A program made the translations under genes and the position numbers. DNA of 64,000 bases from Niabella agricola (GTDB lineage Bacteria; Bacteroidota; Bacteroidia; Chitinophagales; Chitinophagaceae), in contig NZ_JAJHIZ010000002.1 in the NCBI RefSeq assembly GCF_021538615.1, forward strand, positions 124,001 through 188,000. The letters are read 5' to 3'. Numbering within the stretch: the first letter of the stretch is position 1; each line of letters opens with the position of its first letter. Under the pieces are notes generated by a model that saw only the letters and a program-made list of their open reading frames with translations, was not told where the DNA came from and did no database searches. This document shows, in pieces, positions 43,700 through 50,947 of this stretch.

Positions 43700-43802
43700 A
43701 AGGGGGGATTTCAAATTTTCGCTATCGCTGCGCCGATCCGCGGCGGCGGAAGGCATCTGCTAAAACAGGGAGACTTCTTGATTGCACTCGAAGCGACAGT
43801 AT

Positions 43803-44700
43803 AATTGATCTTCTCTACCCGGTGTAATCGGTCATCAGCAAGCCAATAATATGATACGCTTTCGTCACCATGAGCGCAACAAAGTGGAGCCGAAGGGTCT
43901 TCGGACGGTCCGGTATCACAGGGATGCTTCGGCTGTGCTCAGCATGACGGAAGTATGATTGATCTTCTGTATCCGGTGTAATCGGTGATCAGCAGGCCAA
44001 TGATATGATACGCTTTCGTCACCCTGAGCGAAACAAAGTGGAGCCGAAGGGTCTCCTGGCGGTCGGACAGTCCGGTATTACAGGGATGCTTCGGCTTCGC
44101 TGCGCTCCGCTCAGCATGACGGAAGTATGATTGATCTTCTCTACCCGGTGTAATTGGTCATCAGCAAGCCAATAATATGATACGCTTTCGTCACCCTGAG
44201 CGCAACAAAGTGGAGCCGAAGGGTCTCTTGACCGTCGGACGGTCCGGTATTACAGGGATGCTTCGGCTTCGCTGCGCTCCGCTCAGCATGACGGAAGTAT
44301 GATTGATCTTCTCTACCCGGTGTAATTGGTCATCAGCAAGCCAATAATATGATACGCTTTCGTCACCCTGAGCGCAACAAAGTGGAGCCGAAGGGTCTCT
44401 TGACCGTCGGACGGTCCGGTATCACAGGGATGCTTCGGCTGTGCTCAGCATGACGGTAGCATGATTGATCTTCTCTACCCGGTGTAATCGATGATCAGCA
44501 AGCTAATGATATGATACGCTTTCGTCACCCTGAGCGCAACAAAGTGGAGCCGAAGGGTCTCCTGGCGGTCGGACAGTCCGGTATCACAGGGATGCTTCGG
44601 CTTCGCTCCGCTCAGCACGACGATAGTATAATTGATCTTCTCTACCCGGTGTAATCGGTCATCAGCAAGCCAATAATATGATACGCTTTCGTCACCCTGA
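43803..44700. repeat. Tandem array of palindromic intergenic repeats (left part)
   Basis: Units of about 153-172 bp begin near 43804, 43959, 44129, 44302, 44463 and 44630. Each has arms CGTCACCCTGAGCG...GTGGAGCCGAAG and CTTCGGC...GCTCAGCATGACGG that pair with each other, so every unit can fold into a long imperfect hairpin. The sixth unit is cut at CACCCTGA by the IS110 element and resumes after it. 43700-43802 is the decayed edge. Confidence 0.9.
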
Positions 44701-44758
44701 GTTAACCATTAGCGGATCAAAATTATTGGGGTCTATGACGTGGATTATCTTTGATTAA

Positions 44759-44921
44759 AGCAGGCTACAGCAGTGTAGCAGTAACATCGGTTAGTGTCTA
44801 AGTACCTGTCCCTGAGTTTTGCTTCAAAGAACGGTCCATTATTGTTTGGTGATACTGTTGAGGCAGTATTCCCGTTTGGCAGCTTGCCTTTTTTCAGAAC
44901 CTCTTTGAGCTGTAGCCTGCT
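44759..44921 (+). ncRNA. Putative bridge RNA (seekRNA) of the IS110 element
   Basis: A perfect 13-bp inverted repeat (44759-44771 with 44909-44921) closes a ~163-nt region upstream of the recombinase. A short alternative 5' hairpin pairs GCTACA with TGTAGC (44764-44779). Inside, CCCTGAG (44810-44816) equals the left target and core; the next bases GTTTTGCT (44816-44823) pair with AGCGAAAC of the right target, with one G-U pair. TTGGCAG (44876-44882), inside a loop closed by AGGCA/TGCCT, equals the element's right end and core. A right-donor guide is less clear (GGTTAGT at 44789, two G-U pairs). Size and position agree with known IS110 bridge RNAs. Confidence 0.65.
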
Positions 44922-44948
44922 ATTTTCTAACTTTTAAAGATAATAGTT

Positions 44949-46271
44949 ATGTCAAAGGTAATTGAGTTTGAGCAACAAAATGCAAATGCAGCCGCCATAG
45001 ATATTGGCTCAAAAAAGATCTTTGTTTGCTGGGATGGGATTACCGTAAAAAGTTATGAGACTTTTACGGGCAGCTATAAGCAATGTATCGATGAGCTTAG
45101 GGCTAACGGTGTACAGCGGGTGTGTATGGAGGCCACAGGCATCTACTGGATAGCCCTGCACCAGATGCTGGAAGAAGCGGGCATGGAAGTATGCCTGGTT
45201 AATCCCAAAGAAGTAAAGCAGGTAAAGGGTAGAAAGACAGATGTAAAAGATGCCTGTTGGATACAAAAAATGTTTAGTGCCGGTCTGGTGCGCCAGAGTT
45301 ATATTCCTGCCGGCAAGTTAAAAGAGTTACGAATGATGATTCGGGAGCGGGAAGATATTATTGGTATGGGAAGTACCTATGTGAATAAGATGCAAAAGGC
45401 ATTGGAGTTAATGAATATTAAACTCACAGAAGTAATCTGTCAAATTAATGGTGCCAGCGGTATACGGATGATAGAGGCGATCATCAATGGAGAGCGTAAT
45501 AAAGAAAAATTACTGGCACTTTGCCATGTAAGCATCCGGGAAAAGAAGGCAGATGCGGTTTTAAACGCACTTGAAGGGCATTACAATGAAAGTTGGTTAT
45601 TCCTGCTGGAACAAAATTTAATTCTTTGGAAGGTGCACCAAAAACAACTCCTGCGTATTGATAAGCGTATTGAAGCATTGCTAGGTGATTTGGAGCAGGG
45701 TAGACAGTTTGTAGCAAGTGAGTATAAAGCCAAACCGGTACGGCATCATAAACCCATGATAACCGATTTGCACCAGAAATTACTAAATATTTATGGCGTA
45801 GATGCCAATTGCATTCCTGGCATCACTGATTATACACTACTAAAGCTACTGGGAGAAGTGGGGGCAGATATGAGCCGGTTTCCAACGGTAAAGCATTTTG
45901 TGAGCTGGTGCGGTCTTTGTCCCGGTCATAACCAGAGCGGTTCTAAAAGCAGGAAGTCGAAAATGAAGAATCACTCCAATGCAGGCCAAACCTTCCGCGA
46001 AGTAGCTCAGGCCTTGCTTAATAGTAAGTATATAGCTATTGGAGCCTTTATCAGGAAACTAAAGAGTAGAAAAGAGGCGCGCATAGCAATAAAAGCCGGG
46101 GCAAGAAAAATAGCTACTGCATTCTATAATTTATTAACAAAAGGAGCTCAATATATAGAGCAAGGCATTCATAAGTATGAACAACAACTCAAAGAAAGAG
46201 AACAGAAATATTTACAAAAAATGGCTTTAAAATATGGAATGAAGTTCGTTGAAATACAATCGCTTAAATAA
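44949..46271 (+). CDS. IS110-family RNA-guided recombinase (transposase)
   Basis: 440 aa. The N-terminal RuvC-like DEDD domain shows D18 (AAIDIGSK), E61 (CMEATGIYW), D98 and D101 (GRKTDVKDACW). A coiled-coil middle (~residues 180-260) follows. The C-terminal Tnp_20 domain (VDANCIPGITDYTLLKLLGE; FVSWCGLCPGHNQSGSKSRK) supplies the catalytic Ser. All catalytic positions look intact, so the element may be active. It is the only gene of the IS and lies 28 bases after the putative bridge RNA. It would recombine donor and target DNA through guide pairing; that mechanism is known for the family. Confidence 0.95.
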   Translation: MSKVIEFEQQNANAAAIDIGSKKIFVCWDGITVKSYETFTGSYKQCIDELRANGVQRVCMEATGIYWIALHQMLEEAGMEVCLVNPKEVKQVKGRKTDVKDACWIQKMFSAGLVRQSYIPAGKLKELRMMIREREDIIGMGSTYVNKMQKALELMNIKLTEVICQINGASGIRMIEAIINGERNKEKLLALCHVSIREKKADAVLNALEGHYNESWLFLLEQNLILWKVHQKQLLRIDKRIEALLGDLEQGRQFVASEYKAKPVRHHKPMITDLHQKLLNIYGVDANCIPGITDYTLLKLLGEVGADMSRFPTVKHFVSWCGLCPGHNQSGSKSRKSKMKNHSNAGQTFREVAQALLNSKYIAIGAFIRKLKSRKEARIAIKAGARKIATAFYNLLTKGAQYIEQGIHKYEQQLKEREQKYLQKMALKYGMKFVEIQSLK

Positions 46272-46285
46272 TACGTCATTGGCAG

Positions 46286-46545
46286 CGAAACAAAGTGGAG
46301 CCGAAGGGTCTTCGGACGGTCCGGTATCATAGGGATGCTTCGGCTGCGCTGCACTCCGCTCAGCATGACGGTAGTATGATTGATCTTCTCTACCTGGTGT
46401 AATCGATGATCAGCAAGCCAATGATATGATACGCTTTCGTCACCTTGAGCGCAACAAAGTGGAGCCGAAGGGTCTCACGGTCTTCGGGCGGTCCGGTATC
46501 GCAGGGATGCTTCGGCTGCGCTCAGCATGACGGAAGTATAATTGA
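46286..46545. repeat. Tandem palindromic repeat array (right part)
   Basis: Continues the unit split by the IS (GCGAAACAAAGTGGAGCCGA onward) and adds one more full unit with the gatacgctttcgtcac start near 46428. Removing the IS restores a unit of ~163 bp, the same period as the others. 46546-46666 holds no gene. Confidence 0.85.
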
Positions 46546-49167: not shown

Positions 49168-49716
49168 TTATTCCTTTTTGCCTAATTTCTTCATGGCTTT
49201 GGCAACGCTCAGTGTAGTCTTATCATATTCTTCGTGCCCGTAACCATGTCGCTCATTCAACTCATAAAATTCCCGATAAATATCAAAGGGATTTTGCGAC
49301 TCTGCTACCCATTTTATTATAATATCCAGGATCTCATTCATAACAGGCTGATAGGTCATCCTGCCATCTGACTTCCTGATGCCGTTGTTGTCAGACTTTC
49401 GCTTACCCAGGTTTAAAAAGATGTTCTTCTCATCATAAATGATGTCGCGTACCTCTTTAAACTCTGCACCTTTGGGTAGATAGTCCATCAACAACTTTCT
49501 TATGCCACGATAGTAGATGTTGTATTTTTCTTCTGGGTTTTCGAACTCTTTACCAATAACCTGTTTCAGCTCGTCGATTTCATGAAGTGTTCCCTCTTCA
49601 GTATTAATACTCAGTTGTCGGCCTACTTTTTCATTGGCCTTCTGCAGCAGTTCTAATCGTTCAATATCTGCTTCCGAAAGCTCTTCCTGCTTTTTGGTGT
49701 TTTTGTTGCTTGCCAT
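49168..49716 (-). CDS. Hypothetical partner of the ImmA/IrrE-type peptidase (182 aa)
   Basis: Soluble, charged protein (ELSEADIERLELLQKANEKV at the start; KTTLSVAKAMKKLGKKE at the end). No family recognised. It starts 11 bases after the peptidase gene stops, on the same strand, so the two form an operon. By analogy with ImmA/IrrE systems, a cognate partner could be a substrate or a regulator, but no helix-turn-helix is seen here. Function unknown. Confidence 0.7.
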   Translation of the reverse strand: MASNKNTKKQEELSEADIERLELLQKANEKVGRQLSINTEEGTLHEIDELKQVIGKEFENPEEKYNIYYRGIRKLLMDYLPKGAEFKEVRDIIYDEKNIFLNLGKRKSDNNGIRKSDGRMTYQPVMNEILDIIIKWVAESQNPFDIYREFYELNERHGYGHEEYDKTTLSVAKAMKKLGKKE

Positions 49717-49727
49717 AATAATAGGGG

Positions 49728-50921
49728 TTATTTAATTTCTAAAATTTCTTTAATTCTTTCGCTGGTTACTTTTATGCTTTCCTCGTCCCACGATACAGGG
49801 TTTAGCTTTTTCAAAGAATTGCTATAAGCCGGTAAAAATTCTTTAAACGCAGCATGATATTTTTTGCCATATAGCTCATCCTGGTACCAGATGTAAAAGG
49901 AATACACGATGGATTCGTGCACTTCATTTTCCCTTGCAAATTTTGAGACCAGGTAAGGGTTGTGAATATACTTTTTGATATACTGAAACTTCTCTTCCGG
50001 AAGGAAAAAATCTCTTGCAAATGAGTTGGCTTTCTCTTCAATCAGGAATAAATCATCATCTCCAGTTAAATGAAAACGATTTGTTTCTATAAACTCAAAA
50101 TCAAACAATACATGGTGCAGTTCATGCAGCAGGGTAAACCAGATTGTGGGATATTTTTTGTTGAAATCTGTTAATACAATACACGGTTTGCCATTAATAA
50201 TAAATGTACCCCCCCTTACTTGTGTAGTTGACAAATAATCCTGGAAAATCACCGTTACACCCACATTGTATAAGGCCCTGCATACGATAAAGAGCCCATT
50301 ATCTACGTCCTGCGAATAAGGCTTGATTTTTACGATCAAATCTTTTAGCCGATTTCTATCGTAATCATTAGGATTATTGATCACTTTAAAAGTTTGGTAA
50401 GCCGACTTGATCCAAAAGTCTTTCATCTTATCCGAAAAATTTCTTTTGGTACGGCTATACAAAGGCTCTTCCAGTTGCTCTTCAAAATCCTGTATTGAGG
50501 AGAAGCCAAAAAAGGTAAGTACTTTTTTAACTAAAGCATCTAAATTATCATTACTTTGAAAAAAGCCAAGCTTGGTCAGTGTTTTTACATCAAAGTTTTT
50601 TAGTAAAAAGGTGGTTTTTCGTGCACTATCAATCGATGCTATATTATCTACACTTTGATTGTTGAGTACAACCTTAATAAAACTATTAATATCAATCTCA
50701 AGAAATTCGGCCAACTTAACTACATGAATTAAATTCGGCTGTTTTGCGGTGCCGGTAACAATCTCCTCAAAAACATCCTTGTCTATGCTTAATAGCTTTA
50801 GCGCCTTAGTTTTGGCAATGCCATATTCCTCCAGCTTGCTATCAAACAACGCCTTTATATTGGGTACAGGTCGGTCTTCAAAAACCGATTTAAGTAAAGA
50901 ATTTATATTTAGGCTATCCAC
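49728..50921 (-). CDS. ImmA/IrrE-family metallopeptidase with N-terminal HTH-like region
   Basis: The zinc site is clear: HELHH in WFTLLHELHHVLFDFE (about residue 270), followed by a downstream Glu in LIEEKANSFARDFFLPEE, the COG2856 pattern. Residues ~30-90 (IAKTKALKLLSIDKDVFEEI; HVVKLAEFLEIDINSFIKVV) look like an XRE-type helical DNA-binding module. The family cleaves repressors to induce mobile-element or stress responses. The start is taken as GTG 50921, which places a TATTTTTG -7 motif ~20 bases upstream; TTG 50942 is in frame. First gene of a two-gene operon. Confidence 0.85.
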   Translation of the reverse strand: MDSLNINSLLKSVFEDRPVPNIKALFDSKLEEYGIAKTKALKLLSIDKDVFEEIVTGTAKQPNLIHVVKLAEFLEIDINSFIKVVLNNQSVDNIASIDSARKTTFLLKNFDVKTLTKLGFFQSNDNLDALVKKVLTFFGFSSIQDFEEQLEEPLYSRTKRNFSDKMKDFWIKSAYQTFKVINNPNDYDRNRLKDLIVKIKPYSQDVDNGLFIVCRALYNVGVTVIFQDYLSTTQVRGGTFIINGKPCIVLTDFNKKYPTIWFTLLHELHHVLFDFEFIETNRFHLTGDDDLFLIEEKANSFARDFFLPEEKFQYIKKYIHNPYLVSKFARENEVHESIVYSFYIWYQDELYGKKYHAAFKEFLPAYSNSLKKLNPVSWDEESIKVTSERIKEILEIK

Positions 50922-50939
50922 AAAAAGGGTATTTACCCT

Positions 50940-50947
50940 CAAAAATA
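50940..50947 (-). promoter_or_regulatory. Putative -7 element of the peptidase operon
   Basis: The minus strand reads TATTTTTG, matching TAnnTTTG, 18-25 bases before GTG 50921. This supports the shorter start. Confidence 0.4.

Follow-up and report, generated by a model that had tools for sequence, protein, structure and literature searches.

A predicted bridge RNA in an IS110-family element of Niabella agricola, probably with guides on the loop sides opposite to those of IS621

Does the non-coding stretch between the left end of an IS110-family element and its recombinase gene encode a bridge RNA whose guides can be read against the actual insertion site, and on which sides of its loops do these guides lie? 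The question was raised by a locus in Niabella agricola, for which an RNA had been proposed with CCCTGAG and the neighbouring GTTTTGCT as left- and right-target guides and TTGGCAG as left-donor guide, in a layout possibly different from that of IS621. Here we followed this original prediction through the window, that is, the whole stretch of 64,000 nucleotides that was analysed, and through relatives of the element. Our data indicate that the predicted bridge RNA itself is well supported and that two of the three claimed guides stand and one falls, and they make it probable that the locus is an RNA-guided IS110 transposon whose bridge RNA carries its guides on the loop sides opposite to those of IS621.

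The element, its insertion sites and its relatives

The window holds one complete IS110-family element, at 44700-46285 including both cores, with the following features.

44690-44701, + strand: left target half-site CGTCACCCTGAG including the AG core, lying in the final repeat of an array of 172-bp units
44702-44758, + strand: left end of the element, carrying the left subterminal repeat and a TAnnTTTG box
44735-44741, + strand: left subterminal repeat ATGACGT, 33 nt inside the core
44949-46271, + strand: recombinase of the IS110 family, 440 aa, with the Pfam domains DEDD_Tnp_IS110 and Transposase_20
46273-46279, + strand: right subterminal repeat ACGTCAT, the inverse of 44735-44741
46279-46285, + strand: right end with core, TTGGCAG, the right flank starting at 46286 (CGAAAC)

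The recombinase scores 204 bits against a cut-off of 140 for the NCBIfam model transpos_IS110 (IS110 family RNA-guided transposase), matches the solved structures of IS621 (8wt6, E 1.4e-8) and ISCro4 (9t56), and aligns with IS621 over the EATG, KTDxxDA and SG motifs; it thereby shows the family trait of a DEDD recombinase with a C-terminal Transposase_20 domain and SG motif. Upstream of its gene lies the non-coding region (44702-44948) with the RNA inside it. Subterminal inverted repeats recur in the relatives described below, the longest averaging 7.76 bp against 5.47 bp permuted (z 12.7, 45 types). Rfam gave nothing at gathering scores anywhere in the window. Further along, a 404-aa protein (49728-50942, - strand) partly matches the spr1629-type repressor/antitoxin model (27.6 bits against a cut-off of 335), and its gene is followed by that of a 182-aa protein (49168-49716, - strand) without an NCBIfam match.

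The element occupies the last unit of a tandem array (43798-44701) that comprises 5.5 copies of a 172-bp unit. Because the neighbouring units carry CGTCACCCTGAGCGCAAC uninterrupted, the junctions in the window are directly readable and AG is recognized as the shared core, present at both junctions (44700-44701 and 46284-46285) just as originally proposed. The 172-bp units contain REP-like palindromes, and the array is interrupted by the element. CGTCAYCCTGAGCG occurs ten times in the genome: five times within 3 kb around the element, once 7 kb further and four times at one other place. The genome carries four full copies of the element and one remnant; compared over 44691-46300, the copies differ at one internal base (45143, in locus L004), all other differences lying in the flanks and the RNA being identical in all four. 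All four are inserted at CAYCYTGAG sites, and their left targets are alike (CACCCTGAG in the window, CATCCTGAG twice and CACCTTGAG); their right flanks, CGAAAC, CGCATC, CGTAGA and GGAAGC, have little in common. An IS110 remnant, L005 (G000:C3:582510-582911), adjoins tandem repeats that by eye resemble tRNA genes.

Protein searches of genomes, contigs and plasmids, together with IS621 controls, yielded 158 loci, several of them the same place fetched twice, and from these the ends of 59 insertions, representing 45 element types, were read by hand. For the 59 insertions, left flank and RNA come from 59 loci, and two of the right ends were read at L096 and L080 in addition. Excluded from the set are copies that are truncated or broken, among them L005, L047, L049, L050 and L081 (the last was used in the structure alignment only); loci without flank or RNA (L008, L055, L094 and L132); L095, which repeats the right end of L096, and L086, one of a rearranged tandem pair; loci with ends unreadable or not worked out (L056, L089, L133, L137, L138, L143-L145, L147 and L151); and other distant relatives and fragments, which were uncurated. 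Thirty 'main' types remain when ten o-clade types and five types without the stem-loop anchor are taken away, and the 16 clades of the one-type-per-clade test were assigned by hand. Searching genome contigs with one protein found at least one relative, searching viral contigs with one protein found no relative, and an alignment-based search found 14 distant relatives, none of which entered the counts. Locus L035, from a Chitinophagaceae genome, has a recombinase 70% identical to that of the window and equals the same-genus locus L006.

Several arrangements were seen among the relatives. Tandem neighbouring copies of one element occur at L096/L114, L080/L084 and L085/L086, an arrangement that insertion of a circle next to a resident copy would give. 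TCCACAA is the left end of the three related elements L088, L131 and L134, whose left targets all end in TTGAG and whose right flanks differ. Eight o-clade elements (L149, L150, L152, L153, L154, L102, L103 and L115) stand at a left target ending in TAAAAAAC, with flanks resembling what we take to be the orfA/orfB junction of IS3-family elements.

A two-loop RNA and its left guides

The predicted RNA and its parts are laid out as follows, with the share of alignment cells that are paired and the pairs with changes on both sides.

44759-44921, + strand: predicted bridge RNA of about 163 nt (fold z -3.2 against shuffles; covariation)
44759-44771 and 44909-44921, + strand: terminal stem, perfect 13 bp (helix 1; 83.2% paired, both-side changes at 6 of 8 pairs)
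44777-44781 and 44819-44823, + strand: stem closing the target loop, AGCAG/UUGCU (helix 2; 95.4% paired, both-side changes at 3 of 5 pairs)
44782-44791, + strand: 5' side of the target loop, where the family has its right-target guide, pairing with the top strand
44792-44808, + strand: stem-loop of the target loop, UAGUGU...UACCUG (helix 3; 96.9% paired, both-side changes at 2 of 5 pairs)
44809-44816, + strand: left-target guide with core, UCCCUGAG, on the 3' side of the target loop, pairing with the bottom strand
44824-44830 and 44902-44908, + strand: donor-loop stem (helix 4; 92.3% paired, both-side changes at 7 of 7 pairs)
44848-44873, + strand: stem-loop of the donor loop, GGUG...UCCC (helix 5; 100% paired)
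44875-44882, + strand: left-donor guide with core, UUUGGCAG, matching the right end of the element

The structure alignment contains 13 RNAs whose recombinases are 42-100% identical, and its RNAalifold consensus comprises the terminal stem, the AGCAG/UUGCU stem that closes a target loop, the UAGUGU/UACCUG stem-loop inside this loop, the donor-loop stem and a GG.GA/UCCC stem-loop. In this consensus 92.5% of cells are paired, against 78.6% in shuffled alignments and 39.5-54.4% in slid versions, over which it is favoured by having been derived from the alignment on which it was scored. Both-side changes were counted in 63 cells against 19.4 when shuffled, and 0 of 500 shuffles came as high on any of five covariation measures. 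The perfect 13-bp terminal stem of the original prediction is exact in its position, and covariance folding across homologues, which had been put forward as a check, yields a two-loop RNA with compensatory changes over the 13 RNAs; a structured RNA in the non-coding end, with one loop for the target and one for the donor, is a trait of the IS110 family. A TAnnTTTG box, TATCTTTG (44746-44753), begins 12 nt ahead of the aligned RNA; 7 of the 13 aligned RNAs, including that of the window, have a box of this type no more than 45 nt upstream. TAnnTTTG is the promoter consensus of Bacteroidota, and the RNA may be transcribed.

Two segments of this RNA are identical to DNA at the junctions: CCCTGAG (44810-44816) equals the left target plus core (44695-44701), and TTGGCAG (44876-44882) equals the right end plus core (46279-46285), both exactly as claimed. 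Since 1.3% of the 7-mers of the window (both strands) occur in the RNA, this rate and the fold z of -3.2 make the two segments jointly unlikely by chance, as had been supposed. The four copies in the genome match guide plus core at 7, 6, 6 and 6 of 7 bases. Across the 45 types, the left target (7 bases before the core) matches the RNA at 5.26 bases against 2.09 permuted (z 13.6), and the right end (5 bases) at 4.87 against 2.41 (z 14.5), figures to be read with the bias that guide matches helped to locate some element ends and, for the right end, with both partners belonging to the element and sharing descent. Individually, the left target matches at 3, 4, 5, 6 and 7 of 7 bases in 3, 16, 20, 13 and 7 of the 59 insertions, and the right end at all 5 bases in 51 and at 4 in 8. 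A register scan over 28 types peaks at z 11.1 for the left target and 10.7 for the right end, the next registers reaching 2.5 and 3.8, and the 13 types nearest to that of the window give z 5.5 and 4.8. Moreover, the structure alignment, which was made without the targets, places both guides in the same columns.

The core behaves in the same way. In sub-family c (a same-genus genome, recombinase 74% identical) the core is AC rather than AG, and AC stands in both guides and at both junctions in all six copies; in 58 of the 59 insertions both junctions have A as their first core base, and the second base varies. The matching of RNA and DNA over 45 types thus supports a bridge RNA with a left-target guide, a left-donor guide and a common core, as is the trait of the family, and in relatives the CCCTGAG segment changes with its target instead of being kept across differing sites. 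One base after each 3'-side guide also matches the opposite partner above permuted levels (p 0.023 and 0.004), and a handshake-type test with two bases gave p 0.017 and 0.17, the second failing.

For the right donor, no guide was found at the predicted 5' side of the donor loop (2.18 against 2.49, z -2.3). A donor scan over all registers returned many z values of 3 to 5.8 in unrelated places and was set aside, since RNA and DNA are here both parts of the element and have a common descent. GGUUAG (44789-44794) was also considered as the right-donor guide of the window and rejected, sub-families b, c and d being by eye without such complementarity there.

The right target and the alternative explanations

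The comparison of guides with flanks in relatives, under which CCCTGAG and TTGGCAG track the DNA, gave a different outcome for GTTTTGCT, which does not track right targets. According to the original prediction, CCCTGAG and then GTTTTGCT form adjacent left- and right-target guides in one loop. The pairing on which this was built is real: GTTTTGCT (44816-44823) pairs with AGCGAAAC of the right flank in the window, with one G-U. Its role as a guide found no support, for its UUGCU forms the 3' half of the stem closing the target loop, in which G-C becomes A-U in four RNAs and C-G becomes U-A in two of the 13-RNA alignment, and its UUG part stays much the same where targets differ. Right-target pairing in this register is 2.68 against 2.51 of 6 bases in the 30 main types (z 1.3, p 0.10), the sub-family of the window gives p 0.13, and the three other right flanks of the element (CGCATC, CGTAGA and GGAAGC) fail to pair along it. 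A z of 3.9 does appear in the 40-type set that adds the ten o-clade types, a value which we read as reflecting the common RNA and common target of that clade. As GTTTTGCT is largely a conserved stem strand, largely kept at differing sites, the adjacency of left and right target guides is not borne out, and we consider this layout very improbable.

Instead, an RNA-wide scan shows right-target complementarity with its peak on the 5' side of the target loop, 3-5 bases ahead of the stem-loop. Pairing there is 3.69 against 2.86 of 6 bases in the 30 types (z 5.5, with 0 of 20,000 permutations as high), the three shifts of this test having been picked after viewing cases, and z is 4.6 without two poly-U types. 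In eight of the 30 types (e, i88, j101, k10, k84, n134, n148 and n155) the own target comes out on top, and in others it ranks poorly (b 12, c 9, f 28, g77 21, i93 27, j97 25, l13 30 and n146 29). The window element itself pairs at 3 of 6 bases and places its own target 20th of 30. The right-target guide on the 5' side, and with it the swapped layout, is supported for the targets of the family; by extension from the family, the window element would carry its right-target guide at the same place.

An explanation that we find unlikely, and yet the strongest of the alternatives, accepts the bridge RNA and its 3'-side guides but ascribes the 5'-side signal to descent or to REP-like targets, which would leave the guide order relative to IS621 unsettled. 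It draws on the weakness of this signal in the sub-family of the window (p 0.03, marginal), on its absence for the donor, and on right targets often beginning with CG. What speaks against it is that one type per clade (16 clades) keeps a mean z of 3.3 (lowest 2.2, median p 0.001), above 121 control positions, the best of which reached z 2.73 when tested per clade with fewer replicates; that the own target comes first in the eight types named above; and that the identity guides lie 3' of the stem-loop regardless, against 5' in IS621. A more radical explanation would make the structured stretch a cis-acting leader that controls the recombinase gene or the end of the element, its guide-like matches having some other cause. 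The stretch is indeed located in the leader of that gene, but guide and flank change together over 45 types, the core included, and the flank lies outside the element; we hold this to be more improbable still than the adjacent guides.

We therefore favour a bridge RNA with swapped guide sides. In this reading, the RNA from the left end of the element folds into two loops, one for the target and one for the donor. The donor loop would pair through its 3' side (UUUGGCAG) with the right end where the two ends meet in a circular intermediate, and the recombinase would exchange strands at the core.

Comparison with known systems

The element resembles IS621, as described in the available parts of PMC11208160 and PMC11208158, in having its RNA upstream of the recombinase and two loops each with a stem-loop, and likewise in a related recombinase and in one loop guide matching the target plus core and the other an element end plus core. 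It differs in the sides of the guides. In two IS621 copies (L156 and L157), AUCGGGCCU precedes the stem-loop and agrees with the left target and core in 8 of 9 bases, and the segment GUAG, complementary to the core and right target, comes after the stem-loop; IS621 thus has its left-target guide 5' and its right-target guide 3' of the stem-loop, whereas the left guide is 3' of it here. The IS621 core is CT on the coding strand, its T almost invariant according to the accessible text of PMC11208158, whereas it is A-N here, or N-T on the other strand. Further differences are subterminal repeats of 7 bp, against the short repeats of 2-3 bp given for IS110 in the accessible text of PMC11208160, and a recombinase of 440 aa against about 326 aa. 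In IS621 the handshake bases follow the 3'-side guides, and the matching bases of the window family after its 3'-side guides are weak. The expectation of a layout unlike that of IS621 thus appears right as to the reversed guide sides and found no support as to adjacent target guides.

The opposite guide sides and the constant T of the core on the non-coding strand suggest that the chemistry is probably as in IS621, with the cassette of RNA and recombinase reversed with respect to it. Guide sides, the N-T core on the other strand and the handshake-type bases likewise suggest that the left guides of the original prediction correspond in place to the right guides of IS621, the element being turned round. 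Two features offer direct tests of how far the recombination frame can be reversed: the core that has changed jointly, in nature, in target, donor and the two guides, and a set of guides in which it is chiefly the left target that is read, from the 3' side of the loop. The swapped layout was not found in literature titles and the starts of abstracts, in which preprints and subscription papers are sparsely covered; the six diverse bridge RNAs shown in Durrant Fig. 6d and Extended Data Fig. 10c (PMC11208160) are represented there by their legend only.

We see about an even chance that these properties mark a broad IS110 lineage with long recombinases and upstream RNAs, in which the guide sides are swapped, the core lies on the other strand, the cassette is inverted relative to the reaction and the subterminal repeats are long; it was sampled in the phylum of the window and on plasmids of Pseudomonadota and Cyanobacteriota. 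If this is true, the place of the RNA, the guide order and the repeats, which are jointly used to split IS110 from IS1111, do not travel as a package. Bridge recombinases are under development as programmable insertion tools, and a reading by the IS621 layout would mis-assign guides in this lineage.

The traits by which the two groups are told apart are indeed mixed in this element. It shares with the IS110 group the long non-coding region and the RNA upstream of the gene, and departs from it in that the left (bottom-strand) guide lies 3' of the stem-loop and, by the order supported for the family, probably not 5' of the right guide as in IS621 and ISEc21. With IS1111 elements it shares subterminal inverted repeats of at least 7 bp (7 bp here) and probably, as in the seekRNAs of ISEc11, ISPa11 and ISKpn4, a top-strand match 5' of the bottom-strand match, as far as these are described in the available text of PMC11187229; it departs from them in that its RNA is not downstream of the gene, as is usual in IS1111 elements, and in its recombinase of 440 aa against 330-350 aa (same parts of PMC11187229). 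From that text, ISEc21 also has its RNA upstream of the gene, but places the bottom-strand match 5', opposite to the order proposed here, and the 440 aa fall within the 395-455 aa of the long-transposase IS110 subgroup that includes IS110 itself. Insertion into repeated extragenic palindromes recalls the REP-targeting ISPpu9 and ISPpu10, which, in the portion of PMC1525189 available, concern other hosts and repeats and are likened here by insertion sites. Taken against these systems, the element is ordinary as a member of the IS110 family, and its layout is a variant.
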